Positions 3,340 through 35,058 of a DNA stretch of 35,574 nucleotides are shown here, in pieces. Each line of letters begins with the position of its first letter. The stretch's first letter is position 1. Both the position numbers and the translations under genes were made by a program. Origin of the DNA: a virus. A model generated the notes under the pieces. It had not been told where the DNA came from. It saw only the letters and a list, made by a program, of their open reading frames with translations, and made no database searches. The stretch is taken from the IMG/VR virus record IMGVR_UViG_3300042560_000226, positions 1 through 35,574 of that record; one strand, given 5' to 3'.

Positions 3340-3590
3340 TTTTTCAAATTGGTAGGTGTGGGGTTACGCCAGCGCCCGCCCCCGCCGGGGGTAGCTGCCG
3401 GGGGGGGTCAGAATCGCGGTCGGAATCGGGAATGCTAGGGGAATCAACGAGTTACCTACGCGCTATCCGCACAGTGGACAACTTTACATAATGGGTATTA
3501 TACGCACTGACTCCGACAATCCCTTGCGAATCAATGACTTGCGCGTTGTGTAATTTTGCTCGATGCATAAAATCTGTCGCGATGCGCATT
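3340..3590. other. Structured 250 bp gap between terS and terL (candidate pac/cos and/or late promoter region)
   Basis: No convincing gene lies here on either strand, although neighbours elsewhere overlap or nearly touch. On the minus strand there is a perfect TATAAT at 3502-3497, though without a good -35 at normal spacing. A G/C-rich stretch at about 3377-3408 can fold as CCCCC-GGC-GGGGG roughly 40-60 nt before the terL start. An inverted repeat lies at the terS end. In many phages the packaging recognition site is in or next to terS. Here pac/cos function is inferred only from position. Confidence 0.45.
3497..3502 (-). promoter_or_regulatory. Candidate -10 element upstream of terL
   Basis: The minus strand reads TATAAT, a perfect sigma70 -10 hexamer, about 155 nt before the terL ATG. 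The hexamer 17 nt upstream (AAGGGA) is a poor -35, so an activator or alternative sigma contact would be needed. Its position in the only large gap of the packaging region makes a late promoter plausible. Confidence 0.3.
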
Positions 3591-3596
3591 TTATGC
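3565..3596 (-). other. Inverted repeat overlapping the terS stop codon
   Basis: GCATAAAAT (3565-3573) and ATTTTATGC (3588-3596) form perfect 9 bp arms around a 14 nt loop. The terS TAA lies inside the right arm as drawn. The internal ATGCGCAT is itself palindromic. There is no T-run beyond the stem on the minus strand, so it is not a typical intrinsic terminator. It could be an attenuator or a TerS/terminase recognition element. Confidence 0.5.
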
Positions 3597-4106
3597 GGGA
3601 TCTGTTGAGTCGCGCACGGGCAAATCGCTGTGCGTCGCTGTGTCGCGAGTCAGCTTTTCGGGCTCAATCACGCTCACCGTTTTCATCAAATTGCGCACCG
3701 CTTCAAGGTGCAATGCTGTCGTATCCGTCACTTCCAGTTTGGTCTGCATCTTGTCGCCATACGTCTGCATATCCAAACGTGACGCAACCCACTTGCGAAT
3801 ATCAGCCGCGGCTCTCGCAGCGTGAGGATCAATCTGCGACTCCTCTACGCTATTGGCCAGCTTCTCCATTCGCTCGACGTGCCACTGCGCTCGAGCATGA
3901 CGAGCCGCCAGAACTGCCGCCTTGCGCTCCTCATTGTCGAATAGGAATCGGTGCATTCTGCCGTACGGAATCTGGTTAGCGACCGCAAACTCGGCAAGGC
4001 TTCCGCCAGTCGAGACGTACTCGCAGATCTCCCGCATGAAGTTTGGGTTATTCAGGATCGCGATCGCACGGTCGCGCTTCTCTCGTTTTAGTGGTGATCC
4101 TGTCAT
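3591..4106 (-). CDS. Terminase small subunit-like protein
   Basis: A 171-residue, mainly helical, charged protein immediately before terL in transcription order. Residues about 15-55 (NNPNFMREICEYVSTGGSL, then AEFAVANQIPYGRMHRF) look like a helix-turn-helix of the terminase small-subunit type, where a short 'step' selects the packaging site. The rest is Arg/Lys/Glu-rich helix consistent with an oligomerisation region. The ATG at 4106 shares one base with the TGA of the upstream zinc-ribbon gene; an ATG 14 codons earlier is less likely. The role rests on the HTH and on position beside terL. The family could also be a general phage DNA-binding protein. Confidence 0.7.
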   Translation of the reverse strand: MTGSPLKREKRDRAIAILNNPNFMREICEYVSTGGSLAEFAVANQIPYGRMHRFLFDNEERKAAVLAARHARAQWHVERMEKLANSVEESQIDPHAARAAADIRKWVASRLDMQTYGDKMQTKLEVTDTTALHLEAVRNLMKTVSVIEPEKLTRDTATHSDLPVRDSTDPA

Positions 4107-4411
4107 CAGTCGTCGCTCACATGGACATACGTTGTCACGTCTTCCCAATCCTGGTCGTAGCCCTCAAGAGCCACGACGTCAAAGTTGCTCCACGTCTTTT
4201 TCGGTCGCTGCTGGTTGTCCTCGAGGTGCGACTTCTTCACGCCCTTGATTGGCCTGTTCTTGATCTCGTCGGCATAGACGCGCTTCCATACGCGCTCGCT
4301 CGTGGAGAATCTGTGCCCACACGTCATACACTCGCGCCGTCGTCTCGCCTCGGTCGGGAACTGATAGACCTTCACGACCTCGCTCGGTTTCCCGCACTTT
4401 GGGCATTTCAT
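4106..4411 (-). CDS. NrdR-type zinc-ribbon protein lacking the ATP-cone
   Basis: A 101-residue protein beginning MKCPKCG. Cys3 and Cys6 pair with Cys28 and Cys31 (RRRRECMTCGHRFSTSER) to form a zinc ribbon very like the N-terminus of NrdR, the repressor of ribonucleotide reductase genes. The ATP-cone that normally follows is absent. It is replaced by about 60 polar residues containing NRPIKGVKKSH and an acidic tail (DQDWEDVTTYVHVSDD). The ATG at 4411 overlaps the upstream stop (ATGA). It is likely DNA-binding. A regulator of phage or host nucleotide genes, or a packaging or late regulator, are the options; the context next to terS does not decide. Confidence 0.65.
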   Translation of the reverse strand: MKCPKCGKPSEVVKVYQFPTEARRRRECMTCGHRFSTSERVWKRVYADEIKNRPIKGVKKSHLEDNQQRPKKTWSNFDVVALEGYDQDWEDVTTYVHVSDD

Positions 4412-4731
4412 CTCTCGGGCAGCTCTTTCTTTGCGATCTTCAGCCAATCCTCAAGCGGCTGGATCACAAGGAACTCGCGCTTATCGCCGCGGCAGATGAC
4501 AACCGGCACGTCATAGCCAGCACAAGCCGCCTTCACCTGGTCGATCCATTCGTAGACGGCGATAGACTTTCGCCGCTTCACCTCGATCATGAATTGACCG
4601 AGCCTTATATCGCAGCCGCCGTCTCTGGCCTGGCCTAGCTCACGCTTGACCACCCAGCCCGTTTGCTCCGCTATCTTGTCGCAGACCTCGCGTTCGGTTT
4701 CTGCGCCTCTTTGTCGTTGTCGCTTTCCCAC
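4408..4731 (-). CDS. Small PD-(D/E)XK nuclease (VRR/Holliday-junction-resolvase-like)
   Basis: A 107-residue protein with the layout of minimal PD-(D/E)XK nucleases. It has a first helix with RGAETEREV (Glu11/Glu15), then GGCDIRLG (Asp41) and MIEVKRRKS (Glu50, Lys52), followed by a hydrophobic strand PVVICRG. Such proteins resolve branched DNA or act as small endonucleases. The location before terS and terL suggests it clears replication junctions before packaging. The start is GTG, inside the end of the C2H2-finger gene (92 bp overlap), with a weak ribosome site. Confidence 0.75.
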   Translation of the reverse strand: MGKRQRQRGAETEREVCDKIAEQTGWVVKRELGQARDGGCDIRLGQFMIEVKRRKSIAVYEWIDQVKAACAGYDVPVVICRGDKREFLVIQPLEDWLKIAKKELPER

Positions 4732-4933
4732 GTCTCACCCAATAGTCTGGTTGTCTTGCGATATCTACCGCATAACATACCATTTGCACAAGTGCATTGA
4801 TCTCTCTCGCCTTCTCTGACATCTCGGCGATCTGCTCGACCGTGTATTTCTTTTTGCGATGAGCGGTCTTGTGCCAGGTATGAATCTGGCCGCCGGTATT
4901 CTCCACGCCGCATATCGGACAGTTCTTTCTCAC
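4640..4933 (-). CDS. Small protein with a C2H2-spaced zinc finger
   Basis: A 97-residue product starting at a GTG that overlaps the upstream TGA (GTGA). A GGAGG ribosome site sits about 8 nt before it, which supports this start over an ATG at 4960. Cys5 and Cys8 (CPICG) and His21 and His25 (HKTAH) have the canonical C-x2-C-x12-H-x3-H spacing. A helix follows (VEQIAEMSEKAREINAL), then a strongly basic tail (KATTTKRRRNRTRG). The last third is encoded over the nuclease gene in another frame, so its tail may be less constrained. It is probably a nucleic-acid-binding protein; function unknown. Confidence 0.6.
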   Translation of the reverse strand: MRKNCPICGVENTGGQIHTWHKTAHRKKKYTVEQIAEMSEKAREINALVQMVCYAVDIARQPDYWVRRGKATTTKRRRNRTRGLRQDSGANGLGGQA

Positions 4934-5223
4934 CGCCAATCCTCCGCGTCGGACTTCCAATCGTAAATCTTGTTTCGTTTTGGAGGATCGCCGTACTTGG
5001 CCTCCTCTGCCGCCTCGGCTGCCGTCTCAAACGTGGCGAACACGCCGAGCTGCTTCGGGATCACCCTACCGTCAGCACCGCGGCGCCACAGTACGAACTC
5101 CTGCTTACCGCCAATCGTCTGCCCTCGGATACTGAACCTCCTGCACGCAGAGGTCTTACCCCAGAAGTCGGAGTCCTCCCAGGTCAACGGCCCGGTCAAG
5201 TTCAGACTAGTCTGTCTAGTCAT
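4930..5223 (-). CDS. Hypothetical protein (97 aa)
   Basis: No family recognised. The protein is soluble and of mixed composition. It has an aromatic N-terminal part (LTWEDSDFWGK), a central FVLWRRGADGRVIP that looks like beta strands, and an Ala/Glu-rich helix (ETAAEAAEEAKYG) near residues 67-79. It overlaps the next gene by GTGA and the previous one by 8 bases, so it is clearly part of the leftward operon. Confidence 0.7.
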   Translation of the reverse strand: MTRQTSLNLTGPLTWEDSDFWGKTSACRRFSIRGQTIGGKQEFVLWRRGADGRVIPKQLGVFATFETAAEAAEEAKYGDPPKRNKIYDWKSDAEDWR

Positions 5224-5434
5224 GCGTCCAGTCCTGCCGCTTGCCTACCTCGCCGGCTTGGTCTTGGTAGTGGACTAACTTTGCACCAAACTGCTCTTGG
5301 AACGTCTTGAGCACCGAGAAGTCGTCCGACCCCAATGCGTCGAGCATTCGCTGTGCTAGTGGCGTGGACGCAACAGGTTGAGCCAACTCCATCCGCTTGG
5401 GCGTACTAGTCTTGTATCTCACATTCCCTCCCAT
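5216..5434 (-). CDS. Hypothetical protein (about 72 aa)
   Basis: A short soluble protein, first gene downstream of the GGTCAAA repeat region. The C-terminal two thirds (QRMLDALGSDDFSVLKTFQ onward) looks helical. The start is uncertain. The ATG at 5434 has no clear ribosome site. A TTG at 5443 extends it by three residues and lies in a repeat copy. A GTG at 5422 sits 3-4 nt behind GGGAGGG and may be the real start. No function can be assigned. Confidence 0.55.
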   Translation of the reverse strand: MGGNVRYKTSTPKRMELAQPVASTPLAQRMLDALGSDDFSVLKTFQEQFGAKLVHYQDQAGEVGKRQDWTHD

Positions 5435-5437
5435 CGT

Positions 5438-5546
5438 GGTCAAAATCTATGGTCAAAAGTCAAAACCCTAAAGGGTTTTTTGACTTTTTTGACCGCATAG
5501 ACGGTAAACTTCGGTCAAAATTTGACCGTTTTTGACTTTTTGACCG
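5438..5546. repeat. Cluster of GGTCAAAA/TTTTGACC repeats (candidate origin iterons or operator array)
   Basis: In about 110 bp there are nine copies or partial copies of (G)GTCAAA(A) in both orientations. Direct copies start at 5438, 5451, 5459 and 5512. Inverted copies lie at 5476-5484, 5485-5495, 5521-5528, 5529-5536 and 5537-5546. One pair (5512-5528) makes a perfect palindrome, CGGTCAAA-A-TTTGACCG. The stretch is A/T-rich within a GC-rich genome and lies directly behind the primase-helicase gene. Such arrays are typical of replication origins or of a cooperatively bound regulator; which of the two is inference. Confidence 0.7.
5459..5484. terminator. Weak terminator-like hairpin inside the repeat cluster
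   Basis: GTCAAAACCCT and AGGGTTTTTTGAC form an imperfect hairpin with a CCCT/AGGG core and A/T flanks. The plus strand continues into a T-run, and the minus strand also has U-rich sequence after the core. It could reduce read-through from the primase gene, or be only a by-product of the inverted repeats. Confidence 0.3.
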
Positions 5547-5547
5547 C

Positions 5548-13772: not shown

Positions 13773-14261
13773 CTATGCCTCGTTGTTGCTCGACTTGATA
13801 TGCGCCGCCGCGATAACGGGCAGCGTGTGATGCGGAGGAGGAGCCCCCGGCGGCCAACGGAACCCGATGACCCTATCCTTGTCAAAGGGCACCACGCTGA
13901 CGCGGTTGCCTTGGTTGCCGCCTAGCGTGAAGATACGGCCATTGACGTCGACCGCCGTGACGAACCCAACGTGTCCGCCGCCCTTGCGGTCATAGACCAC
14001 AATAGCGCCAACCTCCGGCCCTACGAGCTGGCTGCCGTACGCGCCCCACGCCTTGGCCCTATACCAGTGCTTGGGCCGCTCATAACCCGCCTCCTGCATC
14101 ACAGCGGCCACGAACACGCCGCACCATGGCGTCTCGTCGTCCGACCACCACGCCTTGAGGCTACGCAGCCAGCGCGAGATCACCGGCGCAGTCGCCTTGC
14201 CGGGTATCTCGGCGACGCCACGGTAGCGGCGCGCGAGGGTGAGCCAGGAGGGTTCGCTCAT
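13773..14261 (-). CDS. Endolysin, NlpC/P60-CHAP-type (TIGR02594-like)
   Basis: A 162-residue cell-wall hydrolase. Cys47 in ETPWCGVFV, His97 in GGGHVGFV and Asn116 in LGGNQGNRV give the Cys-His-polar triad of papain-like peptidoglycan amidases/peptidases; the pattern matches the TIGR02594 group. No signal peptide, so export depends on the holin. The ATG overlaps the stop of the long ejection-type gene, and the holin gene starts 3 nt after its stop. Confidence 0.82.
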   Translation of the reverse strand: MSEPSWLTLARRYRGVAEIPGKATAPVISRWLRSLKAWWSDDETPWCGVFVAAVMQEAGYERPKHWYRAKAWGAYGSQLVGPEVGAIVVYDRKGGGHVGFVTAVDVNGRIFTLGGNQGNRVSVVPFDKDRVIGFRWPPGAPPPHHTLPVIAAAHIKSSNNEA

Positions 14262-15925
14262 TGGCCTGCCAGAAGCCCAGCCGGCGCGCCATAGGTCAGC
14301 GCAGACCGAGTGGCACTAGACAGCATGGCTCGGCGTAGCGGGTCGTTCTGCACTCCGCGCAAGATGTAGTCACGCAGCGCCGGGTTCTGGTAGGCGCGCG
14401 CTGCAGCAGCCGGAGCGCCCAAGCCAAGCAGACCGCCGGCAATAGCCATCGTCGCAGCATCGCTCGGAGTCTCACCCTGCGTCACACCATACGCTGCGCC
14501 AGCAAGCCCCGGTGCGAGTGCCTGTCCATAGGTCTGCAGTGCAGCTCGAGGAGCCGTGCCAGACTGAGGGAACGCATCGCGAACGGTCATGGCGCTACGC
14601 GCCAATCGCGCCATATCAGCGTCACCGCGATTCATCAGCGCAGCACCACGCTCACGCTTCGTGGAGGTGGCCGAGGCAAGCCTAGGGATGTTGATGTCGC
14701 CTGTCTCGGTAAGCCCAACGGCATCTTTAATCTTCATCAAGTTTCTGTATTGCTTGCGAGCAAGTTTCAGCGCATCGGCGTCTGCTTTTCCAGCGGTACG
14801 CTCAAGCGCGGAATCTACCGTCTCTCGCAACTGCTTTGATACGCCAGCCAGCGCAGGGTTTTTCCCCATATCAGCAGCGAGCGTGCGAATTCTCTGGTAC
14901 GCCTCACCGCTAATGCGGTCCTGGTCATCCAACTTGCTCAAAATGTTGTTAATTTGATTTCTTAACGGAGCAAGTTGCGCCGGCTCTAGTGACATTGACG
15001 CGCTTTCTTCAAGGGCGGCCAATTCAGATACCATCTGATTGTCAACCTTGACCTTGTTGCGCTTGGCGATGTCGTCCATAACGCTGCCGATGCGATCATC
15101 GGCGCGAGACAGCACCTCTGGTACTGCTGCATCGCCTTGTTCGCCGATCAACTTCAGCGCAGCGCGATTAAATGCCGTCTGAGTCGCCTCTTGCCCCTTC
15201 TTCATGGCGCCAGCCGAAATTGGGTTGTCGGTCAAGAAGCGTCGCACCATGCGCAGATTCTCTGACCCGGCCTGCTCGGCGATGTCAACCGGAACACCGG
15301 CTTTCTCAAGGCGCGAAACGGCTTTGGCGACTTGCGGTGTGGCCTGACTCGTGGTCGGCTGTGCAAGGCGAGAAAGTCCGCGAGCAGCGGCCTGTCCAGC
15401 CATGCCGCCGATTGCGCCGATCCCGACGTTGAGCGAACGTTCATCTTGAGTTCCAACCGGCTGCACGGCGCCCATCGTGCCGCCGACTGCAGCAGCGCCG
15501 GCAAGCGTGCGCGGCGCGCTAACGGCTTGCCCGATTCGCCCTGCTGCGCCACCTACGCGGCCAAGGGCTGCGCCTGGTAGAAGCATCGTGCCAAGTGATC
15601 CGGCCATGTAGCCGAGTTGTCCTGCGCCACTTTCCATAAATGGCGCAGCCTCAGCGGCGCGAACGTCCTGCTCTGCGCGAAGTCGTGCGACCGTCTGCGG
15701 AGATACCGCGCCAAGCGCAGCACCGGCCTCAGCGCCGAGTTGGCGCAAGCCGTATCCAATGTCAGTAACAGACTGCAGCGCGCCGCGGCCAAATCGCTCT
15801 GCTGCGCCCATTTGCGGGGCGGCTCTTGGGGCTTCCATCTTTTTGATTTCGGCCTCAATCTCGGCAGGGCTCATGGAGTCCGGGAACGTGACTCGGCCAA
15901 CCCCTTCAATAAATACCGTAGGCAT
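14258..15925 (-). CDS. Probable internal virion / DNA-ejection protein (555 aa)
   Basis: A long Ala/Gly-rich helical protein. It has several amphipathic or hydrophobic Gly/Ala stretches (LGYMAGSLGTMLLPGAALG and GLAGAAYGVTQG) and a long coiled-coil-like middle (residues about 200-430). The N-terminus (PTVFIEGVGRVTFPDSMSP) is like short domains found at the start of phage ejection or internal proteins. No enzymatic motif is seen. Position between the S74/390-residue pair and lysis, plus composition, suggests a protein ejected with DNA to cross the host envelope. The assignment is by architecture, not by a named family. Confidence 0.5.
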   Translation of the reverse strand: MPTVFIEGVGRVTFPDSMSPAEIEAEIKKMEAPRAAPQMGAAERFGRGALQSVTDIGYGLRQLGAEAGAALGAVSPQTVARLRAEQDVRAAEAAPFMESGAGQLGYMAGSLGTMLLPGAALGRVGGAAGRIGQAVSAPRTLAGAAAVGGTMGAVQPVGTQDERSLNVGIGAIGGMAGQAAARGLSRLAQPTTSQATPQVAKAVSRLEKAGVPVDIAEQAGSENLRMVRRFLTDNPISAGAMKKGQEATQTAFNRAALKLIGEQGDAAVPEVLSRADDRIGSVMDDIAKRNKVKVDNQMVSELAALEESASMSLEPAQLAPLRNQINNILSKLDDQDRISGEAYQRIRTLAADMGKNPALAGVSKQLRETVDSALERTAGKADADALKLARKQYRNLMKIKDAVGLTETGDINIPRLASATSTKRERGAALMNRGDADMARLARSAMTVRDAFPQSGTAPRAALQTYGQALAPGLAGAAYGVTQGETPSDAATMAIAGGLLGLGAPAAAARAYQNPALRDYILRGVQNDPLRRAMLSSATRSALTYGAPAGLLAGQ

Positions 15926-17119: not shown

Positions 17120-19216
17120 TTACTTGGCTCGCGGCTTGCGCGAATTGCCCTTACTTACTTTGGCATCAAGCTCCTTGACAGCCTCAGTAAGCAACCCAAT
17201 CATCTGCGGAACCCCAACACGACGCATACCGTCTTCGCCGCTTGATACGGCTTTTGGCATGACTTTTTCTACGCTTTGAGCGGAAACACTCATATCTTCT
17301 TTTTCATCATCTTCGTATTCGTCGTCTTTCCAGTCAAACTCAATACCCTCAACACGCTTAATTTTGTCTAATGGGTTTTTAATCGGGCTCGCATTTTCTT
17401 TAAGCCGCATATCTGACTTAAATGGCTGCCATCCAAGTCCTGCGGCAGTTCCAAGAGCAGTCCCAAAAGCTGAGAACGGGCTCGTTGTTCCGGTGGTTGT
17501 TCCCGTCTGAGTAACGTTGTACGGGCTCACCTGAATCGCACCCTGCCGAATCGCAAGCTGCTGGAGCGGGAACTGCTGCCGACGCAAGTCCTCCTCACGC
17601 TGCGCGTTGAGGAACTGCTGGTAGAGCTGCTGCTGCGCGCCACCGATGCCCATCAGCGCCGACGCGGCACCGTAGCGATTCTGCTGCGCCAACTGACCAA
17701 AGTCGGCCAACTGACGACCGGCACCGAGCTGGAACTCAGCGCCTTGCAGACCGGCGGCCTGATTACGCGCGGCAGCGTCTAGCATCGCCTGCACGTTGAA
17801 CTGTTGCGCCGTGGAGCCCATGCGCTGCGCCTCGAGCATCGCTTGCTGGTTACGCGAGGCAGCGTCCAGCATCGCCTGCTGGTTCGCCTGCTCTGCCGTG
17901 AGCCCAGCGCGCATATAAGACTCAATCGCCGCCTGATTAGCGCGATCCGCCTCAAGCCCCGCCTGTACGTTCGTGGTCTCAGCGGTAAGCCCAAGACGCT
18001 GCGCCTCTTGCACGGCGGCCTGATTGCGAGACGCCGCGTCCATCTGCGCACGCTGGTTCGCCTCTTCGGCAGAGAGTCCTGCGCGCATATAAGCCTCGAC
18101 GGCGGCTTGGTTAGCACGCGCCGCCTCAAGACCAGCCTGCACATTGGCCTGCTCTGCCGTGAGTCCGAGCCGCTGCGCCTCCTGCATCGCCTGCTGGTTC
18201 GCAAGCGAGGCACGCATCTGCGCGTCCACGTTCGCCTGCTCGGCGGTGAGCCCAAGGCGTCTAAGCTCAAGGTCGCGCTGCTGGTTCGTGATCTGCCCGC
18301 GCTGCGCAAGCTCCATCACATTCTGCGTCGCCGCTTGGTTGGCAAGCGCCGCCTCCTGCTCGCGGCCCACGTCAGCCTGTCGCAAGGCAGCCGCCTCGCG
18401 GAAGGCTTGAGCGCGCTGCTCGGCGACAAACCGATTACGCTCACGCGCCGACTCTCCTGCAGCAATCCCGGCCTCAATGGCCTGTCGAGAACCACCGAAG
18501 GCACGCGCTGCGGTAGCGCGACGACCGACCTCTGCCTGTCGTGCGCGATCTGCGCGGTCAATATCTCCAAGTCCGGCCTCAATAACGGCCTGCTCGTAGG
18601 GGTTCATGTACCGGCCAAGGTCTTGCCCTAGGAACGAAGCGCCACGCACTGTCGGCGCAGCGCCCGGTGCAGCAATCTCTCTGGCGGCGAACGTGGTGCC
18701 TACTCGACCTGCCGAGACTCGCTCAGGCGCGAAGGTCGTTCCGACGCGACCGGCAGAGATACGCTCTGGGCCACGGGCGAGCGACGCGCCAATGTCTCGC
18801 GCCGCAATACGCTCCGGCGCAAACTGCGTGCCGACGCGTCCCGCCTGGATCATTTGCGGCCCACGAGCAAGCGCACCACCAATTCGCTCGGCGCTAATCG
18901 GCGCGGCACCGAATTCTGTGCCGACTTGACCAGCCGACACTCGCTCTGGCTGGTATCCCATAAGGCCCATCGCGCTACGCGCAGCAGCCTCTACCTCTGG
19001 GACGAACCCACCCTCTTGTGCAATACGCCGTGTCGCTTCCTCTCCGGCCATGTAATCACGCGTGAACGGCGCGACCATCATGCCACGGTACGGCTCATAC
19101 GGGATTGCCGCGACCTGCTCCGCAAACTGGAGGTTTCCCAGTACGCGGTTATAGATCTGCGGATCAATCTCCGTCTTGGAGGTCTCGGTTTTCTTGGATC
19201 TAAACAGTTTGCTCAT
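17120..19216 (-). CDS. Repeat-rich structural protein with C-terminal S74 chaperone domain (698 aa)
   Basis: Three regions are visible. Residues about 60-165 hold degenerate 14-16-residue repeats of the type RVGTTFAPERISAG. Residues 320-493 are six exact-length 29-residue repeats (R-x-GLTAEQAN core, RNQAA near the end). The C-terminus from about residue 600 has SDMRLKEN, then VEGIEFDWK and QSVEKVMPKAV, typical of the Peptidase S74 intramolecular chaperone. That domain usually trimerises fibres and cleaves itself off at the Ser of the SDxRLK motif. A fibre or spike, or a long helical ejection-related protein, is likely. The start overlaps the preceding gene by 4 bases. Confidence 0.72.
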   Translation of the reverse strand: MSKLFRSKKTETSKTEIDPQIYNRVLGNLQFAEQVAAIPYEPYRGMMVAPFTRDYMAGEEATRRIAQEGGFVPEVEAAARSAMGLMGYQPERVSAGQVGTEFGAAPISAERIGGALARGPQMIQAGRVGTQFAPERIAARDIGASLARGPERISAGRVGTTFAPERVSAGRVGTTFAAREIAAPGAAPTVRGASFLGQDLGRYMNPYEQAVIEAGLGDIDRADRARQAEVGRRATAARAFGGSRQAIEAGIAAGESARERNRFVAEQRAQAFREAAALRQADVGREQEAALANQAATQNVMELAQRGQITNQQRDLELRRLGLTAEQANVDAQMRASLANQQAMQEAQRLGLTAEQANVQAGLEAARANQAAVEAYMRAGLSAEEANQRAQMDAASRNQAAVQEAQRLGLTAETTNVQAGLEADRANQAAIESYMRAGLTAEQANQQAMLDAASRNQQAMLEAQRMGSTAQQFNVQAMLDAAARNQAAGLQGAEFQLGAGRQLADFGQLAQQNRYGAASALMGIGGAQQQLYQQFLNAQREEDLRRQQFPLQQLAIRQGAIQVSPYNVTQTGTTTGTTSPFSAFGTALGTAAGLGWQPFKSDMRLKENASPIKNPLDKIKRVEGIEFDWKDDEYEDDEKEDMSVSAQSVEKVMPKAVSSGEDGMRRVGVPQMIGLLTEAVKELDAKVSKGNSRKPRAK
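17738..18259 (-). repeat. Six tandem 87 bp (29-residue) coding repeats
   Basis: The six units encode 29 residues each with no length change. Shared positions are R-x-G-(L/S)-(T/S)-A-(E/Q) at the start, N at position 10 and (R/A)NQ near positions 20-22. Units 2 and 4 resemble each other (LEA-RANQAA), and units 3 and 5 resemble each other (DAASRNQ), giving a 58-residue higher-order pattern. Confidence 0.8.
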
Positions 19217-19593
19217 AGTCTTTTTTCCAGCACGACCGCCGTGCGTCTGTATCCTTCAAGCGCCCGCTGCCAGCCGGGGCGTCCCATAATTAGCATCGTG
19301 TCGCAGTTGATGTGCCGCGCCCACTCCTCAATGACCGGACGGATGATCTTGTCAATCTCCTCTAAATCTCCGGCACCGATGATGACCGTCAGTTGCTTAA
19401 GTCGCGGGAACACGTCCACGGTCGTGATGACGCATGAGTTTTCCGACGACCAGAACTGGTACTCGCCGGCCTTGATGCCCTCAATCACGTCAGCGTAATT
19501 GAGTTGGCCGTAGTTGTGCCCCAGCGCACGCTCGATTAGCTCTCGGAATGGGGCGATATACTCCAACCCCTCAACGTCCTCTGTGCTAATCAT
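19213..19593 (-). CDS. Small GNAT-like phage protein (126 aa)
   Basis: A compact alpha/beta protein: helix (APFRELIERALGH), strand (CVITTVDVFPRLKQLTVIIG), helix (IDKIIRPVIEEWARHI), strand (CDTMLIMGR) and a final GWQRALEGYRRTAVVLEKRL. This resembles small acyltransferase-fold proteins beside tail genes of short-tailed phages. An acetyl-CoA loop is not convincing, so it may be a fold-only structural or assembly factor. It overlaps both neighbours by 4 bases. Confidence 0.5.
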   Translation of the reverse strand: MISTEDVEGLEYIAPFRELIERALGHNYGQLNYADVIEGIKAGEYQFWSSENSCVITTVDVFPRLKQLTVIIGAGDLEEIDKIIRPVIEEWARHINCDTMLIMGRPGWQRALEGYRRTAVVLEKRL

Positions 19594-27025: not shown

Positions 27026-28006
27026 TCAAGTCGTGGTGAGGTCAGCGGCGAGACCGTGCGCGGCCTCGGTGTTAACCTTCAAGCCCCACTCGACGAGGAT
27101 CATGCGCTTCTCGGCGTCGCCGGTCTTCGCAAGTTCCACAGTCTGGAAGGGACGCAGGAAGGCGACGCTGGCGTACTCAGGGTCGAGCACGAAAGCATCA
27201 CGCTCACGCTGGAAGCGGTTGGGAACAACCGACACCGCGCCGAAGTCGCTAACGTACACGTCCGCAGCGCCGATGATGACACCCGGCTTGTTGCCAGCCA
27301 CATCGCGACGGAGTTCCGCGATACCCGCGAAGCCCGACACGCGCTGCTTGTTGACAGGGCCGACCATCAGAATCTTCGGCGTACCACCAGCGGCCCACAC
27401 CTTCTGAATCACGCTTTTGAGGATCGTCTCAGTGAACGTGCGCAGGTTGGCATCAGTCGCGTCCGTGCGGGTCGCGTTCGGCTGCGTGGTGTACGACGGA
27501 TCAGCGCCGGTCGTGCCCTTGTCCGTGTTGGACTTGATGAAGGCAAGGAGCGAGCCCGTCTTACGAAGCGCCGTGCTAACACCAGCCGAGCCACCCGAGG
27601 CAGCCTGGTTGGTGAGCATGATGCTCTCCATGTCGCGCTTCAGTTCGGCAGAGCGCTTGGCAAGCTGATAAGCCAGCTCCGAGCGACGACCAGCCTTGTC
27701 CACCGACTCAAGCGTGCCCGAGAGGATGAGCGTCTTGCGGCTGACCTGCGTGTAGTTGCCGACACGAACCGTCGCAGTGGTCGAATCGTAGGACGACACG
27801 TCGTCGCCTTCGATCTGCGCGTTGGTCGTCGAAGCGGCGGCGAGCGAGTCCGTCTGCCACTCAAAGAACGTGTTTTTTACGTTCTCGCGACCGATGTTCG
27901 ACATGAACGGTGTCTCTTCGGGCGAAATGTTGTAGATGACATTCGAGAGTGACTCGCGAATGCCCTTCGCGCCGAAGGTATCAAAAGTATTAGCTGTCTG
28001 TGACAT
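27026..28006 (-). CDS. Major capsid protein (DUF5309/SU10-type, HK97 fold)
   Basis: A 326-residue protein. The N-terminal part (KGIRESLSNVIYNISPEETP, then FMSNIGR and FFEWQTDSLA) and the middle (YTQVSRKTLILSGTLESVDK) are characteristic of DUF5309 capsid proteins. Later segments (KILMVGPVNKQRVSGFAG; VYVSDFGAVSVVPNRFQRER) continue the match. Length is normal. A GAGGA ribosome site sits about 10 nt before the ATG. It directly follows the scaffold gene and is followed by a strong hairpin, as expected for the most abundant virion protein. Confidence 0.9.
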   Translation of the reverse strand: MSQTANTFDTFGAKGIRESLSNVIYNISPEETPFMSNIGRENVKNTFFEWQTDSLAAASTTNAQIEGDDVSSYDSTTATVRVGNYTQVSRKTLILSGTLESVDKAGRRSELAYQLAKRSAELKRDMESIMLTNQAASGGSAGVSTALRKTGSLLAFIKSNTDKGTTGADPSYTTQPNATRTDATDANLRTFTETILKSVIQKVWAAGGTPKILMVGPVNKQRVSGFAGIAELRRDVAGNKPGVIIGAADVYVSDFGAVSVVPNRFQRERDAFVLDPEYASVAFLRPFQTVELAKTGDAEKRMILVEWGLKVNTEAAHGLAADLTTT

Positions 28007-28019: not shown

Positions 28020-28988
28020 TCAATCTAAAAACTGTTCAAACACAGCAGCCGCATCTTTGTGGCTGCCACTATTTGCGAGTCTAGAAAGAGCCGCCTTGGA
28101 TGCTACGACCTTGGACGATTGTGGCGTGGATGCGGCGCCAGCCTTCATCGGCTTCGCCTTCTGCATGATCTTCGGACGCATCTGATCGCGTTTGCTCATC
28201 AGCTCGTCGAACATCATTGCCTTACGCAGCGCCAGCACGGCTCGGGCGTCGTATATGTCCGAAATCTCCTCGACACTAAAGCCAAGTCTTTCGGTGGCAT
28301 ACGAGACGATCTTCGCCTTCTCGGTGCGAGCCTTATCGGCGTCGCGCCATTCTGGCAGAACCTCTAAGAGTTTATTCCGTTCAGCCTCAAGGGTCTTTTC
28401 GGCTTCAATTCTCTCTTCGGTTTGCTGCTTCTCCACGAGAGCCTGCTTCTGGGCTTGCACCCACGCAGCCTGCTCCTGCCTTGATCGCACTAGCTCGCGC
28501 TGTCTCACCCATTCGACCGGGTTCTCTTGGTAGAGTCTATCCCAGTCGATCTCGGGAGGTTGCAGCGACTTGAGCGTGCCATCAAGGGCCGCCAAAGTCT
28601 GCGCATACCGTTGCCGCTCTTCCCGCGCCAGCGCAGCCTCTGCTTCGGCCTGTTTACGGGCCTCCGCAATGGCTTGCGTCTTGCGCGTGTAATCCGCGGT
28701 GCGTGAGTAGCCTTTTAGAAGCTCATCCAGCGGCACCTCGACTTCTTCCCCGTCAACCTTGACGCGGAATGTCTGGGCCTGCTGGGGCGCCTCTTCGGCC
28801 TCCTCATCGCCTTCGGTTTGCTCTACGCTCTCGTCAGCCGACTCGCTGTCTGCTAACTCAAGCCCCTCATCCACGCCTTCAGTTTCTTGCTGCTCGGTTT
28901 CGCCTTCATCGGCGGCGAGCATCTGCTCGAAAACATCCTGCGTAGTTTGTACGTTTCCCGGGGGTACACCCGTGCCGGTTTCGCTCAT
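28020..28988 (-). CDS. Capsid scaffolding protein
   Basis: A 322-residue, very acidic then helical protein. Residues about 10-75 are Glu/Gln/Asp-rich and disordered. FRVKVDGEEVEVPLDELLKG near 80-100 is a short domain common in scaffolds. A long coiled coil (residues about 110-220) and a helical C-terminus follow (HKDAAAVFEQFLD). It lies directly before the capsid gene. The ATG at 28988 is preferred to an upstream TTG. It should guide shell assembly and leave before or during packaging. Confidence 0.85.
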   Translation of the reverse strand: MSETGTGVPPGNVQTTQDVFEQMLAADEGETEQQETEGVDEGLELADSESADESVEQTEGDEEAEEAPQQAQTFRVKVDGEEVEVPLDELLKGYSRTADYTRKTQAIAEARKQAEAEAALAREERQRYAQTLAALDGTLKSLQPPEIDWDRLYQENPVEWVRQRELVRSRQEQAAWVQAQKQALVEKQQTEERIEAEKTLEAERNKLLEVLPEWRDADKARTEKAKIVSYATERLGFSVEEISDIYDARAVLALRKAMMFDELMSKRDQMRPKIMQKAKPMKAGAASTPQSSKVVASKAALSRLANSGSHKDAAAVFEQFLD

Positions 28989-29014
28989 ATCTCTATTGTG
29001 CAAGATTCAAGCGA

Positions 29015-29284
29015 TTATTTGCGCCCTGAAATCTTGTCGATGTCTCTTTTTGCCATCGCGCCATTCTCAACTACGATCCGCAGGTGGCGCTGTATTTCTT
29101 CAAGAATCCCTACGGCGAGCCATAACCGCTCGCGCTCCTCTTGGTCGGCGGGCTTGCTCTGCCGCCACGCCTTGAGGTATTCAGATTCCAGAACGGCAAA
29201 AGCCTCCACGAGCATCGGGTGCTCTAGGAGGTCTTTGGCTTCCTGCCCCTTGCGGGCGTCGATGTAGGGATTGCGTTCGCTCAA
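29015..29284 (-). CDS. Conserved small phage protein (89 aa)
   Basis: A helical, Glu/Arg/Lys-rich protein (YIDARKGQEAKDLLEHPMLV; ERLWLAVGILEEIQRHLRIV) ending in a basic tail KRDIDKISGRK. It begins at a TTG overlapping the preceding TGA (TTGA), without a clear ribosome site, so expression probably depends on translational coupling. An internal Met at residue 24 is an alternative start. Located just before the scaffold; function unknown. Confidence 0.62.
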   Translation of the reverse strand: MSERNPYIDARKGQEAKDLLEHPMLVEAFAVLESEYLKAWRQSKPADQEERERLWLAVGILEEIQRHLRIVVENGAMAKRDIDKISGRK

Positions 29285-29457
29285 GCGAGGAGGCCGCCTT
29301 TAGGTTTCTTCATGGCTTTCTTCAAGAGTTTACCACCCTTGTCAGCCTTGTTGAATTCCTTGGCGACTTTCATCGGGATGCCGACCTTCTTTGCGAACTC
29401 CTTGGAGTGCGCGGCGGCGGCCATGAGGCGGGCTTGTTTAGCGGATTTGCTGGGCAT
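29281..29457 (-). CDS. Small lysine-rich protein (58 aa)
   Basis: ATG at 29457 shares one base with the preceding TAA; TGA is at 29281-29283. The product is very basic (SAKQARLMAAAAHSKEFAKK; KGGKLLKKAMKKPKGG). Proteins of this type often sit in phage head gene blocks and may be packaged with, or bind, DNA. The call rests on composition, overlaps at both ends and position. Confidence 0.65.
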   Translation of the reverse strand: MPSKSAKQARLMAAAAHSKEFAKKVGIPMKVAKEFNKADKGGKLLKKAMKKPKGGLLA

Positions 29458-29780
29458 TATGATTTCCTCGACTTGTATTGTTTTAACAATCTGCGGCCTT
29501 TTTCAACCGCACTCGCTTTATCACCCTGATGCCCCCACGCCTCCAGACTCAATTTGAGGCGAGTTTTGTCTCCGTCAGGCTCATACAGTAATCCAGGCAT
29601 TGATCCCATGCGCGTCAAGAATGAACCTTTACGCCGCATCTCCTGCGGCGAATCTGGCGCACCCTTCACGGGCGGCTTCAAAGTGCCGCCAGTCTGCGCC
29701 TTGTACGACGCACGACCTTTGGCATTGAGGCCGCCCTTCTTGGACTTGCCTTCAGCGCGCTGCCATGCCGGCGTCTTCAC
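29457..29780 (-). CDS. DUF6321-family protein (107 aa)
   Basis: A basic protein with the family hallmark TPAWQRAEGKSKKGGLNAKG, then RASYKAQTGGTLKPPVKG, near residues 3-40. A second half follows with MRRKGSFLTRMGSMPGLLY and a helical Lys-rich end. DUF6321 proteins occur in many uncultured aquatic phages; their function is unknown. The start is GTG overlapping the preceding TGA (GTGA). Confidence 0.75.
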   Translation of the reverse strand: MKTPAWQRAEGKSKKGGLNAKGRASYKAQTGGTLKPPVKGAPDSPQEMRRKGSFLTRMGSMPGLLYEPDGDKTRLKLSLEAWGHQGDKASAVEKGRRLLKQYKSRKS

Positions 29781-29926
29781 TTGCGCTTCTTCGCCGTCTT
29801 CGCCGCGGCCTTGAAAGCCTTTGCGGTCGGTGCACCCTTCGCGCCAGGCTTGCGCATCTTCTCGCCGCTACCGGCTGCGATGCGCGCTCGTTTTGCCCAG
29901 ATGTTTGAATAGAGTCCTTGTTTCAT
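29777..29926 (-). CDS. Small basic protein (49 aa)
   Basis: ATG at 29926 overlaps the stop of the Pro/Tyr-rich gene. The product is strongly basic (MKQGLYSNIWAKRARIAAGS; PTAKAFKAAAKTAKKRK). Similar short peptides (KQGLY-N--AKRARIAAGSGEKMRKPG type) recur beside DUF6321 genes in aquatic phages, to my knowledge without assigned function. It is the first of three consecutive small basic proteins and may be a DNA-binding or head-assembly peptide. Confidence 0.65.
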   Translation of the reverse strand: MKQGLYSNIWAKRARIAAGSGEKMRKPGAKGAPTAKAFKAAAKTAKKRK

Positions 29927-31449
29927 ACTAAATACTCGTCAAAATAATTGTTAAACCTAACCGGCTCTTCAAAAAAAACAGGGCTGGGGTAATAAACCGG
30001 CGCCGGAGGTGGTGCGTAAAACATCGGCTCTGGCGTTGGTTGACGAGCGTATACCGGCTCTTGATAAACAGGAGGCGGTATATAAACCGGCTCTTCATAA
30101 ACCGGAACAGGCGGCGCATACACAGGAGCAGGCGGCGGTGGCGGTGGCGGTGGCGGAATGTAAATAGGCTCCGGTTGCGGCGGAGGGATATAAACCGGCT
30201 CAGGAGCAGGTGGCGGTATGTAAACCGGGGCCGGAGGCGGAGGCGCGATATAAATAGGCTCAGGCGCTTGATACGCAGAAGGCGGAATATAAGACGGTTC
30301 CGGTGCGTAATCAAAGACCGGGTTGCTATAAACAGGCTCAGGCTGTTGATACGTCGGTATCGGCTCCTGATAAACCGGCGGCTCATAAATAGGAGCCTGC
30401 TCTTGATACGCAGGTGGCGTATAAGCAGGCTCTTGAAAAGCCGGAAACGACTCTTGGTATATAGGAGGCTGATATACCGGCTCTTGAGGCTGATAAAACG
30501 GAGCCGGCGGCGGAGAGTATTGCGGTTGCTGCGGCTCAATGTACACAGGCTCCTCAACCATTGGTCGAGACGGCACATATTCTCTTCCACGCGAGTCAAT
30601 GTCAGCCACGCGCTGCTCCAGTTCTAGCGCTGCTGGAGATCTAATTTCAGAAACGCCCTGCTGCGGCGGCTGAACGACCGGAGCCTGAACCTCAGGCTGC
30701 ACCGGAACGTTCTGCTCAACCGGCAGGGCTTGGTCAAAAGGGAGATTGAATCCCCCATATCCAAATGATGGCGCACTAGCTGGCGCTGGCGCGGCGGCAG
30801 GAGGCGCTGCAGCAGCGGGAGGCGTAGAAGCAGCAGGTGCCGTCTGCTGTTGCCCAGTAGGCATAAAGTTTTCTTCAAAAAGTTGAGAAAACCTTGGCTG
30901 GTCAAGCGAAGAAAGCAACTGTCTTAATCTGCCCCTTCTACCCATTCCACCGCCTACTCCACCGCCCATTCCACCGCCCATTCCACCGCCTATTCTACCG
31001 CCCATTCCAAAGCCGCCGCCAAAGAACGACGTGGCAGCAAACGGGTTGAAGGCAGGGCCACCGTAGTATTGCTGTGAAAAATACTGAGAAAAGGCATCGT
31101 TAATGGTCGGCTGGTACTGCGGCACGAGCGGCTGTTGGCCGTAGCCAAATCCGCCGCCGTAGCCGCCCATTCCCATGCCGCCGAAGGTCGTACCGTAGCC
31201 ACCTAGGCTGCTCGAGAACGGGCTGCCGTATCCTCCGCCATATCCGCCCATGCCGCCGCCAAGCTGGGCATAAATATTGCCGCCCAAGCCGCCGACGCCA
31301 TAGCCACCCGAAAACGGGCTGCCATAGACTTGGCTGTATCCACCGCCATAGCCTTGGTTGGTAATGTACGGGTCGCCGCCAAAGCCGACGCCTCCGTATC
31401 CCATGGGAGACTGCATATACTGCGTCTGCCCTCTAAATGCGTTGCTCAT
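29923..31449 (-). CDS. Low-complexity Gly/Tyr-rich then Pro/Tyr-rich protein (508 aa)
   Basis: The first ~175 residues are dominated by GYGGG, GGMGG and GSPF motifs. A short helical island follows (GRRGRLRQLLSSLDQPRFSQ, then LFEENF), then Ala/Pro, and from about residue 290 a run of Pro/Tyr repeats (EPVYIPPP, QEPVYQPP, APVYIPPPAP) to the end. No enzyme motif, signal peptide or membrane helix is seen. The composition resembles structural, phase-separating or extensin-like proteins and is rare in phages. It overlaps the basic protein after it by 4 bases. Translation is supported by the unbroken 508-codon frame, neighbours and coupling. Function unknown; a flexible virion or assembly protein is a guess. 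Confidence 0.72.
   Translation of the reverse strand: MSNAFRGQTQYMQSPMGYGGVGFGGDPYITNQGYGGGYSQVYGSPFSGGYGVGGLGGNIYAQLGGGMGGYGGGYGSPFSSSLGGYGTTFGGMGMGGYGGGFGYGQQPLVPQYQPTINDAFSQYFSQQYYGGPAFNPFAATSFFGGGFGMGGRIGGGMGGGMGGGVGGGMGRRGRLRQLLSSLDQPRFSQLFEENFMPTGQQQTAPAASTPPAAAAPPAAAPAPASAPSFGYGGFNLPFDQALPVEQNVPVQPEVQAPVVQPPQQGVSEIRSPAALELEQRVADIDSRGREYVPSRPMVEEPVYIEPQQPQYSPPPAPFYQPQEPVYQPPIYQESFPAFQEPAYTPPAYQEQAPIYEPPVYQEPIPTYQQPEPVYSNPVFDYAPEPSYIPPSAYQAPEPIYIAPPPPAPVYIPPPAPEPVYIPPPQPEPIYIPPPPPPPPPAPVYAPPVPVYEEPVYIPPPVYQEPVYARQPTPEPMFYAPPPAPVYYPSPVFFEEPVRFNNYFDEYLV
29950..30580 (-). repeat. Degenerate Pro-Tyr coding repeats
   Basis: The minus strand encodes many short units of the type (Q/E/A)-P-V-Y-(I/Q/E)-P-P-P with periods of about 8-13 residues. 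On the plus strand the same region shows recurrent TAAACCGG/TAAATAGGCTC blocks. Unit lengths vary, unlike the strict periods of the 221-residue repeat protein. Confidence 0.7.
30941..31008 (-). repeat. 12 bp tandem repeat encoding Gly-Gly-Met-Gly units
   Basis: Five full units and a partial sixth of CCCATTCCACCG and close variants run from 30941 to 31008. The 12 bp period keeps the frame, so slippage would lengthen or shorten the Gly-Met stretch by four residues without disrupting the protein. Confidence 0.85.
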
Positions 31450-31457: not shown

Positions 31458-32819
31458 CTATGCCGTCAAATCGTAGAAAGCCAAAGACCCAATCGCAGAG
31501 CCGGTGCCGCTGAGAGTTCTAACGGCCACGGTGTACACGTCACTCGTCCCGGCGATTGTCGATCCGAGTTGCATATCGAAGTTATAAACCAAGTCATTCT
31601 GTGACTGCACGCCAGATTGGTTGCTGGCCGTTGCGTACTCGTTTAGCACGACATCACCGCCAGTCATGGCGGTCGCAGAAACATCAAAGTCTACGTTTGC
31701 AAATGTCGTCGTGTCGTAAGATGCGGAGGTCAGCGTTGCATTTTTAATCAGCGCAATCTCATACTCTCCGTTAGCAATTGGAAGCACTCTTACTTGCTTT
31801 GGGATGATTACAGAACCAAGAGCATCGGAAGCAAGACGAATGGAGACAAGAGGCACGAAAGAAGTTCCAATGCCTGTTAATGTCGTCGTTCGTCTTGCCA
31901 CCTGCTCAACTGACATCTGCTCATACCCGCCCTCTGACATCACAGAGGAGCAAATCTGCTTCATGCTTGAAGCAGAGGCCGTCAACGCCGTGTTTTCAAT
32001 TTCTAACCGAATCGGCAGGGTCGCGGTCTGCATATAGACCGCCGTGACCTCGTTTGCATTGTCGAATGTGTGGGCCGTGATGTATTCACCATCAATCACA
32101 AATCCGACTCTGACGGAACCCACGCCAAGCCACTCAAAATCCATGAACATGATCTGGGCCTTGGTCGTGTCGAGCGTTATCCCGCTCGCCCCACTTCCAT
32201 CCAGCTTGTCACCATTCCATGAAGACTGTGCGACCTTTCTTGCATCGCTTGGCGATCCGCTCGTATACGTTCTAATGATGAACGACAGCTCTGCGTTTTC
32301 GCGCTGCAAGAAGACGCCGTTGTTGGCGTCGAAGTATCCAACCCTTTGACGTAGACCTGTCTTTGCTGCGGCCATGACAAACGTTGAGATGACGAGCAAA
32401 CTCTTTCCAGGCTGGTACGGAAAGTATCGCTTTGTCTGACGGATTACCTTATCACCGGATGCCGTCGTGACATCCATCCTTACGGCAGACTCATTAGACA
32501 AAAACGTAGTCGTGCCAGAGCCGGTTAGCGACGTATCAAACGCCGGATCTGACGCATAACGGTTCTGACTGTCAAATAGCGTAAACGGCGTTGACGTTCG
32601 CAACCGTCCAAAGGCATCGAAGTTAGTTTTTTCTAACAAGTTTAAGTCCGTCAGACTGTTAATGAACTTGACGATCTCAAACTGATTGCTCGCCAATAAG
32701 CTGAGATATAGTTTGAGCTGGTTGTTGATTTGATTTTGGTACTGCGCAGAGTAAGCCTGTGGTGCCACGCTTGGGTTAGGCGGCTGCGGTACGAAAACCC
32801 CCTCTAATGGTGTTGACAT
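31458..32819 (-). CDS. Virion structural protein of unknown type (453 aa)
   Basis: A protein with a helical N-terminal 70 residues (YQNQINNQLKLYLSLLASNQ) and a beta-rich remainder (FDAFGRLRTSTPFTLFDSQN; LLVISTFVMAAAKTGLRQRV; GYFDANNGVFLQ). The beta part resembles jelly-roll or lectin-like domains of phage minor structural proteins (inference). It sits right after the portal gene, 4 nt from its stop. A head-decoration, neck or tail-associated role is likely. No enzymatic motif. Confidence 0.58.
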   Translation of the reverse strand: MSTPLEGVFVPQPPNPSVAPQAYSAQYQNQINNQLKLYLSLLASNQFEIVKFINSLTDLNLLEKTNFDAFGRLRTSTPFTLFDSQNRYASDPAFDTSLTGSGTTTFLSNESAVRMDVTTASGDKVIRQTKRYFPYQPGKSLLVISTFVMAAAKTGLRQRVGYFDANNGVFLQRENAELSFIIRTYTSGSPSDARKVAQSSWNGDKLDGSGASGITLDTTKAQIMFMDFEWLGVGSVRVGFVIDGEYITAHTFDNANEVTAVYMQTATLPIRLEIENTALTASASSMKQICSSVMSEGGYEQMSVEQVARRTTTLTGIGTSFVPLVSIRLASDALGSVIIPKQVRVLPIANGEYEIALIKNATLTSASYDTTTFANVDFDVSATAMTGGDVVLNEYATASNQSGVQSQNDLVYNFDMQLGSTIAGTSDVYTVAVRTLSGTGSAIGSLAFYDLTA

Positions 32820-32823: not shown

Positions 32824-35058
32824 TCACATTACCTGCGGAGGAACCGGAGGCTGTGGCGCCATCTCTTGCGGCATCTGCGGTGCAATCGGCGGCATCGGCT
32901 CAAATGGCACGATCTCTGGGATCACAGGGCGCTGCACAGAGGGCGACGCAATACGCGGACGCTCCACCATCGCCTTGATCTCTGCCATGTCCAACTGCGC
33001 ACCGTACTTGAGCTGCACCTCGTAGGCGCGAAGCATGAGGTCGGCCTCCTGCTTGTCGCGCTCACGGTCGTCAGCGAGAAGCGTCTGCTGACGCTTGAGC
33101 TCCAGCTCTGCCTGCGTGTTCTGGATGTTTGCTTGAATCTTCTGCTGCTCAACCTGCGCCAAGATCATCGCCGGATCTGGCGGCGGCGGAGGTTGCGGAG
33201 GCGGAGGTGGCATCATTGCCGGATTTAGGAAGAACTCGTCGGCGTTCTTGTAGCCCGACGCCTCAACCAATCGCACGAGCGTGTTGCGGTACTGCTGCGG
33301 GGTGACGAGCGGATTCTGTGGCCCCATGAGCTGCATGATCTGCTCTTGCTTCTGAGCAATAGAGGTAAGCACCGCGATTTTCTGCTCTTCGGTGCCGCCA
33401 CCCAGCGCGACATCAATCTCCACGTCCATGTTCGCGTCCCACGACCGTGGGTCAATCGGCACCCACTGGTTACGGAGGCGCACCACCCGCGCTCGGTCTT
33501 GGTTTTCTACGACCAGCTTGAGAATACCCTTGAACAGGGCGCGCATCCCGGTTTCAGCGAAAATCCGGGCGATCAGCTCAAGATGTTGCTGTGCAGCGCT
33601 AACGGTCGCAGCGACCGCTGCGCGGGTGGTGCTCTGTAGCGCACCGGCGTCAAGGCCCATCGCGGCCTTGCTCATGCCAGTGCGGGTCTCGCGTACCTCA
33701 TCAAGATACCCGAGCATCGGGAACGCGGCCTGTCCCACGAAGGGGACGGAGAACGGCTGCACGGCGCCAGTTTGGCGCATACGGATGACGCCACCGACCT
33801 CGGTGTTGAGCACGTCGTCCATGTTGACCTGGCCCTCGACGACGCCGACGCGAGGATGAATCGCGAGCGAGAGCGAGTCGAGCATATTGCGCATGATCGC
33901 CGACTTGATCTTTTGCAGGTCTGCGGTCATGTCAAACATGGACAGCCCGATCAGTGCGTGCGGCTCTGGGTCTGGACAGAAAAGCGCGAACGGTGCTTGC
34001 GAGCACGGCTCGTTCGATACCATCTTGTACGACGGGCCGATGGTGCAAATTTTGCGCAGCTCTGAGATGCCATCCTTGTCGTAATCGACGCGGATGTACG
34101 CCTCGCAATACAGCACGCGCTTGTCATCTTGCGTGCCGCCCGGGCCATAGGACTGTGCGTACGGGTTACGCGCCAGATACTCGTCATTTGTATCTAGCTC
34201 GTATACACCCATCTGCTCCTGCACTTCCTCTTCGTTGTAGCCCAAGGCCACAAGGTCAGAGACGCGCATCATGCGGCGGTGGGCGACGAGCGTCGCGTCC
34301 TCAACCGAGCGAGCGCGACGGTCAATCAAAAACTCTTCCGGTGGGATTGCCTCAACACGCACTCGACCGTCGCGGATTTCGCGCTTCAGTTCCACCGAAT
34401 AAATCTGCGGCACTGGAAGCGGCATACCCGTCATCGGGTCAACTACCGGCTGTCCTGTCGCAGGGTCAATAGGCGGCTGGTACGACGGATCGTCCATTGA
34501 GGTGATGGCGCTACCGACAACACCCGGCTCAGACAGCAGTACCGTCAGCGCCGACTCGTCAAGGCCGGTGAAATACTCGGTCTTGATCTCGACCTTTTCT
34601 TCCCAAACATACTTGGCGATGCCTAATGCACCGCGCAAAGCGTCTTTGAATACTGAGTGGCAAACAAGAAAGCCGTTATTGTCATTCGTAAAAATGTAAT
34701 TGACGTAATCGGTCGCCTGCTCGGATACCGCGATGTCCTCTGGATTACGCGGCGCAAACTGGACGATCTTCTTTGAACCAAAAAAGACCTTCATCAGCGA
34801 CGGCATGATGCCGGCGATGGTGTCGCGGACATCGGTCGAGACAACTTGCGAGCGACCCTCTTCCTCGTTACCAAACGGCTCGCCGCGATAGTACTGAATG
34901 GCGCGGGCACGAACCGGCGACAACTCCGCGTCGATAAACGACGTGGCGTCGGTCAGTTCCATCCCGACCAAAGCCTCTAGGTCAGAGTCCGCCATCGGCT
35001 CCTCAATACCTAAAGCGCCCTGAGTCTGCTCAATTAACGAACCGTCTTGGTTATACAT
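32824..35058 (-). CDS. Portal protein (P22-like)
   Basis: A 744-residue portal forming the dodecameric DNA gate. The N-terminal segment contains RAIQYYRGEPFGNEEEGRSQ, then VVSTDVRDTIAGIMPSLMKV and FFGSKKIVQFAPRN, the typical start of large P22-type portals. The middle has YCEAYIRVDYDKDGISELRK and PDPEPHALIGLSMFDMTADL. Then comes TGMSKAAMGLDAGALQSTTR near the wing/stem region, followed by a long C-terminal coiled coil with Pro-rich ends (PPPPPQPPPPPDP; PPVPPQVM). The large size and coiled coil fit portals with a barrel. The gene follows the GH130-like gene by about 40 nt. Confidence 0.9.
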   Translation of the reverse strand: MYNQDGSLIEQTQGALGIEEPMADSDLEALVGMELTDATSFIDAELSPVRARAIQYYRGEPFGNEEEGRSQVVSTDVRDTIAGIMPSLMKVFFGSKKIVQFAPRNPEDIAVSEQATDYVNYIFTNDNNGFLVCHSVFKDALRGALGIAKYVWEEKVEIKTEYFTGLDESALTVLLSEPGVVGSAITSMDDPSYQPPIDPATGQPVVDPMTGMPLPVPQIYSVELKREIRDGRVRVEAIPPEEFLIDRRARSVEDATLVAHRRMMRVSDLVALGYNEEEVQEQMGVYELDTNDEYLARNPYAQSYGPGGTQDDKRVLYCEAYIRVDYDKDGISELRKICTIGPSYKMVSNEPCSQAPFALFCPDPEPHALIGLSMFDMTADLQKIKSAIMRNMLDSLSLAIHPRVGVVEGQVNMDDVLNTEVGGVIRMRQTGAVQPFSVPFVGQAAFPMLGYLDEVRETRTGMSKAAMGLDAGALQSTTRAAVAATVSAAQQHLELIARIFAETGMRALFKGILKLVVENQDRARVVRLRNQWVPIDPRSWDANMDVEIDVALGGGTEEQKIAVLTSIAQKQEQIMQLMGPQNPLVTPQQYRNTLVRLVEASGYKNADEFFLNPAMMPPPPPQPPPPPDPAMILAQVEQQKIQANIQNTQAELELKRQQTLLADDRERDKQEADLMLRAYEVQLKYGAQLDMAEIKAMVERPRIASPSVQRPVIPEIVPFEPMPPIAPQMPQEMAPQPPVPPQVM

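Follow-up and report, generated by a model that had tools for sequence, protein, structure and literature searches.

A gene in the head operon of a short-tailed phage encodes a 508-residue protein that is rich in glycine and tyrosine at one end and in proline and tyrosine at the other. This raises the question of whether such a protein is real and, if so, what it does for the virus. The stretch of DNA that we analysed, here called the window, is a single IMG/VR virus record of 35,574 bases.

The reading frame lies exactly where a preliminary description of this DNA had placed it. It is intact and runs on the minus strand, which that description had left unstated (Table 1). The start codon follows 8 nt past the stop of the 453-aa gene (p453), and the stop overlaps the ATG of the gene for a 49-aa basic protein (ATGA), which in turn overlaps the DUF6321 gene. 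The preliminary description held that frameshifts in relatives would mark the frame as non-coding. None occurred in any relative seen, and the frame is intact in all 55 distinct full-length relatives from the clade. Substitutions in the minus frame show a strong synonymous bias. Compared with the nearest relative (L067), the first 145 codons carry 37 synonymous and 6 non-synonymous changes, a dN/dS of 0.04, and the value for the whole protein is 0.23. Comparison with L002, L054 and L055 gave 0.10-0.14 for the N-terminal region, bringing the range for this region to 0.04-0.14 over four relatives. That the ORF makes no real protein, its frame being held open by GC-rich repeats or the opposite strand being the coding one, might be suspected from the DNA tandem repeats within the gene and from an antisense ORF of 195 aa at 30040-30627. 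This has next to no chance of being correct, as the dN/dS comparison contradicts it, and the synonymous bias, the intact frames in the relatives and the start/stop coupling with the adjoining genes all stand against it. The ORF is a genuine gene in a tightly coupled gene row.

Table 1 Genes of the head operon in the window and segments of the low-complexity protein. Positions are those of the window.
Feature	Positions	Strand	Basis or remark
Major capsid protein (SU10_MCP)	27026-28006	minus	Pfam PF17236, E 8e-97
Scaffolding protein (phrog_3927)	28020-29003	minus	PHROG match, E 7e-63
Small head-operon protein p89 (phrog_8161)	29015-29284	minus	PHROG match
58-aa basic protein, start MPSKSAKQAR (phrog_16759)	29281-29457	minus	
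DUF6321 protein, 107 aa	29457-29780	minus	Pfam PF19846, E 6e-25; overlaps 49-aa gene
49-aa basic protein (phrog_16028)	29777-29926	minus	ATGA overlap with stop of low-complexity gene
Low-complexity protein, 508 aa	29923-31449	minus	Intact ORF, ATG start; in frame in relatives
Pro/Tyr repeat tail (PVYIPPP type), residues 301-508	29926-30549	minus	Variable, dispensable
Pro/Ala/Gln linker, residues 177-300	30550-30921	minus	Motif FNLPFDQALPVE common to several relatives; helix 272-287
GGG(M/V) repeats and Arg cluster, residues 144-176	30922-31020	minus	RMRRRRQMFEDLF in most relatives
Conserved core QPTINDAFSQYFSQQYYGGPAFNPFAATSFF with helix 116-129, residues 113-143	31021-31113	minus	Alignment, model
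Conserved start MSNAFRGQTQ and Gly/Tyr-rich region, residues 1-112	31114-31449	minus	Alignment of relatives, composition
p453, upstream virion protein, 453 aa (phrog_1645)	31458-32819	minus	Lectin-like fold at residues 66-299; N-terminal helices
Portal protein (SU10_portal)	32824-35058	minus	Pfam PF23899, E 4e-210

Residue counts bear out the Gly/Tyr-rich N-terminus and the Pro/Tyr-rich C-terminus that had been described. Residues 1-112 contain 37% Gly and 12% Tyr, while residues 301-508 contain 35% Pro and 13% Tyr, with 18 [PA][VISTP]Y units and 21 acidic against 2 basic residues. The whole protein has 9.3% Tyr, 5.5% Phe and 13.6% Gly in addition to its Arg cluster. Lys, Cys, His and Trp are all absent from its 508 residues, with a chance of about 3e-13 given the composition of the neighbouring proteins. 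An AlphaFold model made with 36 relatives has a mean pLDDT of 55.6, and the protein is predicted to be largely disordered. Because the model contains helices only at 116-129 and 272-287, the helical island that had been placed between the two halves is present but consists of two short islands rather than one. The former helix falls in the conserved core, in a block with a pLDDT of ~80. Residues 401-450 reach a pLDDT of 81-90 with neither helix nor strand, as expected for a polyproline stretch. Judged by composition and pLDDT, the protein has the aromatic and Arg 'stickers' in a predicted-disordered chain that are expected of phase-separating low-complexity proteins.

Relatives gathered via the portal protein and via the low-complexity protein's own alignment reveal a conserved N-terminal module of ~120 aa, present in all but a few divergent ones. 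It comprises the start MSNAF.GQ.Q, the Gly/Tyr/Phe region, the core, GGG runs and the Arg cluster. The core follows the pattern QPT[IV]ND.F.QYF.QQYYGG.AF.PFAATS, a short helix, in which N117, Y123, Y128, Y129, G130, F134 and P136 are invariant or nearly so. Protein length ranges from 120 to 533 aa across relatives, and the 120-aa form (L032) has little beyond the module, namely the start, the core, a Gly run and an Arg-rich end. DNA tandem repeats occur at 30941-31009 (period 12/36) and, within the tail, at 30096-30264; the unit SYxEPxQY is found in 2-9 copies among close relatives. Phages with 99.6% identical portal DNA nevertheless encode low-complexity proteins of 418 and 374 aa, and others with 98.6% identical portal DNA encode versions of 250 and 347 aa. 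The L002 protein is only 225 aa long and has no PVYIPPP tail, despite a portal protein 98% identical to that of the window, and the protein on a second contig, L099, likewise has 225 aa. To judge from the aligned sequences, the Pro/Tyr tail changes through repeat gain and loss and the N-terminal start is under strong selection. Since tail repeats vary and the tail is missing in L002, the two-part composition represents one state of a variable protein. That composition is not what the family conserves, as the Gly/Tyr region is retained in homologues and the Pro/Tyr half is missing in L002 and L032.

The genes for portal, p453, low-complexity protein, basic proteins, p89, scaffold and capsid share one strand and form a head operon. 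Portal, major capsid protein and adaptor (PF24175, E 9e-36) all belong to SU10 families in Pfam, which identifies an SU10-type podovirus. Between the portal and scaffold genes is set a cassette of a lectin-fold virion protein, the low-complexity protein and three small basic proteins. The position between structural genes and ahead of three basic proteins is thus real, as had been described, and one of the three is the DUF6321 protein. The family of p453 is annotated as 'virion structural protein', and residues 66-299 are modelled as a legume-lectin/concanavalin-A-like fold (Z ~15) in a model of low confidence (mean pLDDT 55.6). p453 is swapped in part of the clade, where a 61-aa piece like its N-terminus stays. 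In these loci (L010, L011-L017, L028, L036, L049-L053, L058-L062) p453 is replaced by the 61-aa piece and a protein of 113-119 aa, sometimes with an additional 'tail protein' of 419-607 aa (phrog_5939) and two small genes, in the slot beside the low-complexity gene. One GNAT-like gene directly adjoins the low-complexity gene in the L058-L062 group; proteins resembling phage GNAT acetyltransferases by eye are encoded at L058:2931-3371 and at 19213-19593 of the window.

Each of the three small basic proteins behaves as a module: PHROG profiles show them joined to one another or to larger proteins, among them head virion proteins, of which one of the three forms the N-terminus. DUF6321 genes are found near terminase genes in S-CREM1, Sf-CH8 and MEP401, and shortly before a terminase-like gene in Pelagibacter phage Hodr. 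We rejected the possibility that a fusion was split into the low-complexity protein and DUF6321, as the N-terminal part of Sf-CH8_72, a long DUF6321 protein, has no such Gly/Pro/Tyr richness. The interval between DUF6321 and p89 (29281-29460 in the window) is a cargo slot that measures 166-200 bases in some phages and up to 2.2 kb elsewhere. It often holds a gene for 248-541 aa with the shared start '...LLDPES' (examples at L031:13064-14521 and L035:10186-11811), and two such genes weakly match DUF7178. Elsewhere in the window, glycosyltransferase-25-like and methyltransferase-24-like genes at 669-1984, which lie between terminase and portal if the record is read as circular, possibly serve to modify glycans of the virion or the cell surface. 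A region of ~2.2 kb between the terminase gene and a 684-aa gene (3340-5547) has no convincing long gene.

In all 84 fetched clade loci with a portal and a DUF6321 gene, the low-complexity protein is encoded between the two. A composition or BLAST filter found 83 of them, the last being the 120-aa form of L032; since some loci share contigs, 84 is not the number of independent phages. None of 36 members matches any PHROGs family, and at E 0.01 the PHROG search gave no match between the low-complexity protein and the ejection-protein families. Pfam returned no consistent family among the 36 members, only three weak single-member DUF matches and none for the window protein itself, and no PDB chain matched in sequence. 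Searches of 50,697 phage records by tblastn with the whole protein and the core found nothing, although low-complexity masking may hide weak matches, and none of 42 pattern matches in bacterial and archaeal genomes was confirmed as a relative. By whole-record profile searches, neither the low-complexity protein nor p453 occurs in phiM5, Venkman, HTVC106P, the two Manatee Spring phages examined or a sister contig of 38 kb with 54% portal identity; Venkman has DUF6321 alone of the cassette. Our literature searches found no paper that contains DUF6321 and nothing relevant on Gly/Tyr-rich or disordered phage virion proteins. The carriers are best explained as a genus-level clade of SU10/LUZ24-type short-tailed phages. 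By sequence comparison, the family has no counterpart in the libraries that we searched (PHROGs, Pfam, PDB, phage records); its general type, an accessory protein of low complexity encoded among phage head genes, is not a wholly new category. The earlier statement that such composition is rare in tailed phages agrees with the missing PHROG, Pfam and phage-record matches, which cover sequence and not composition.

What, then, might the protein do? We give a probability of roughly 0.5 to the reading that it is an accessory component of the virion, intrinsically disordered, which docks by its N-terminus and carries a tail as spacer. The ~120-aa module, with its start peptide, Gly/Tyr/Phe-rich segment, short amphipathic helix and Arg cluster, would dock the protein, as the particle assembles, at the head or portal region. 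The C-terminal part, rich in Pro and Tyr, would be an extended polyproline-type tail that serves as spacer or tether, a function for which length could drift by repeat gain and loss. Operon position and gene coupling point to presence in the virion. Of the roles suggested in the preliminary description, a flexible virion component fits best. That the protein builds an assembly compartment essential to the phage is unlikely, since the gene is missing from sister phages whose portal, scaffold and capsid genes follow the same order; the protein is accordingly part of one clade's inserted cassette and dispensable for the head plan generally. Against a virion role it can be said that position in the head operon is no proof, as scaffold and chaperone genes sit there too, and that the sister phages manage without the protein.

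Among full-length proteins, divergence of the N-terminal region tracks that of scaffold (rho 0.74) and portal (0.72), compared with 0.21 for the lectin anchor and 0.07 for the capsid protein; a first pass had given 0.75 for scaffold and 0.57 for portal. In the largest subgroup alone the scaffold and portal values are 0.46-0.48, no better than for other neighbours. Because scaffold and portal tie and the values drop within one subgroup, co-divergence with the scaffold is weak evidence only and was rejected as proof of binding. The pattern leans towards putative docking at the portal-scaffold side, and common inheritance would explain much of it. Two relatives start with MSSLFKSKKK and MGSLFKSKKKK, similar to the 698-aa tail/ejection-type protein of the window (MSKLFRSKK). 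The three (L036:5323-6354, L053:6596-7819 and window 17120-19216, the last with an S74 chaperone end) are the only matches among 2870 candidate starts to a pattern drawn post hoc, and this start is possibly a common targeting peptide.

An alternative that we entertain tentatively is that the protein is the surface adhesion partner of the lectin-like p453, a flexible external bristle or spacer gripping polysaccharide or cell surfaces. The adjoining, coupled gene has the lectin-like fold, the extended, repeat-variable Pro/Tyr-rich tail fits a surface stalk, and alternative modules (a 607-aa phrog_5939 'tail protein', 61- and 119-aa genes) fill the same slot. However, the N-terminal region does not track the lectin anchor, and the first 180 codons are 99% identical between L028 and L029, which stand next to different lectin modules. 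These two results give no sign of a specific lectin partnership. A tie to one lectin module was rejected, since p453 and the p61/p119 module can both have near-identical N-terminal regions next to them; the low confidence of the p453 model also weakens the case for adhesion. It is unlikely that the protein is instead packed inside the head, possibly alongside the small basic proteins and DNA, and exits with the genome. The Arg cluster within the N-terminal module would suit this role, as would the three small basic proteins that come next, one of which is linked to head virion proteins, the divergence best matched with scaffold and portal, and the MSxLFKSKK start in common with a protein that weakly resembles DNA-ejection proteins. 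In SU10, moreover, ejection proteins are present but unresolved in the cryo-EM map (PMC9509320). On the other hand, genes recognisable as ejection-type are found at another place in the window (14258-15925, phrog_26400 'DNA ejection protein', E 4e-26), the protein matches no enzymatic family and its acidic tail would be a poor DNA binder.

Composition brings up a further possibility, that of a sticker-and-spacer protein which phase-separates via Tyr/Phe and Arg and concentrates head proteins in an assembly condensate. The contents of Tyr, Phe and Gly, the Arg cluster, the absence of Lys and the predicted disorder are consistent with it, but composition by itself is no demonstration of condensation. 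Sister phages whose head genes stand in the same order assemble without the protein, and the Tyr-rich tail is dispensable, one natural member having just 120 aa; we regard the condensate as improbable. A more elaborate version is just as improbable. There the protein, convergent with eukaryotic low-complexity proteins, would collect the lectin and the basic proteins in a condensate or gel, located at the portal vertex or on the surface of the head, whose strength the number of tail repeats would tune.

The family thus lies outside the searched libraries yet is present in every checkable clade locus, and it combines a fixed module of ~120 aa with an almost freely variable tail. Its members provide a natural length series from 120 to 533 aa for probing the effect of a disordered tail on or in the virus particle. 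If the protein is a virion spacer or adhesive, this would explain why such proteins lack annotation; should it condense, phages would have in it a rare counterpart to eukaryotic low-complexity proteins.

The head module of the window resembles that of SU10 (Kuravirus) and LUZ24/phiM5-type phages in its SU10-family portal, adaptor and major capsid proteins, and the order portal - small gene - scaffold - capsid is common to the window, phiM5 and Venkman. In the sister phages the small gene, scaffold and capsid come directly after the portal, whereas in the window the cassette is inserted there. Relatives of p453 are shared with T4-like cyanophages and HMO-2011. In S-CREM1 the DUF6321 gene directly follows the p453 relative with no low-complexity gene between them, and Sf-CH8 likewise differs from the window in having none between the two. 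Eukaryotic FUS-like proteins, FG-nucleoporins, cell-wall extensins and silk proteins are similar to the window protein in composition only, and neither a PDB chain nor a consistent Pfam family indicates a sequence relationship. SU10 has an accessory protein from the head region, gp10, of uncertain position and function and with a predicted Ig-like fold (PMC9509320). The window protein is predicted to be disordered instead and bears no recognisable relation to gp10; like gp10 and the phi29 head-fibre type, it would be an accessory protein encoded in the head region.
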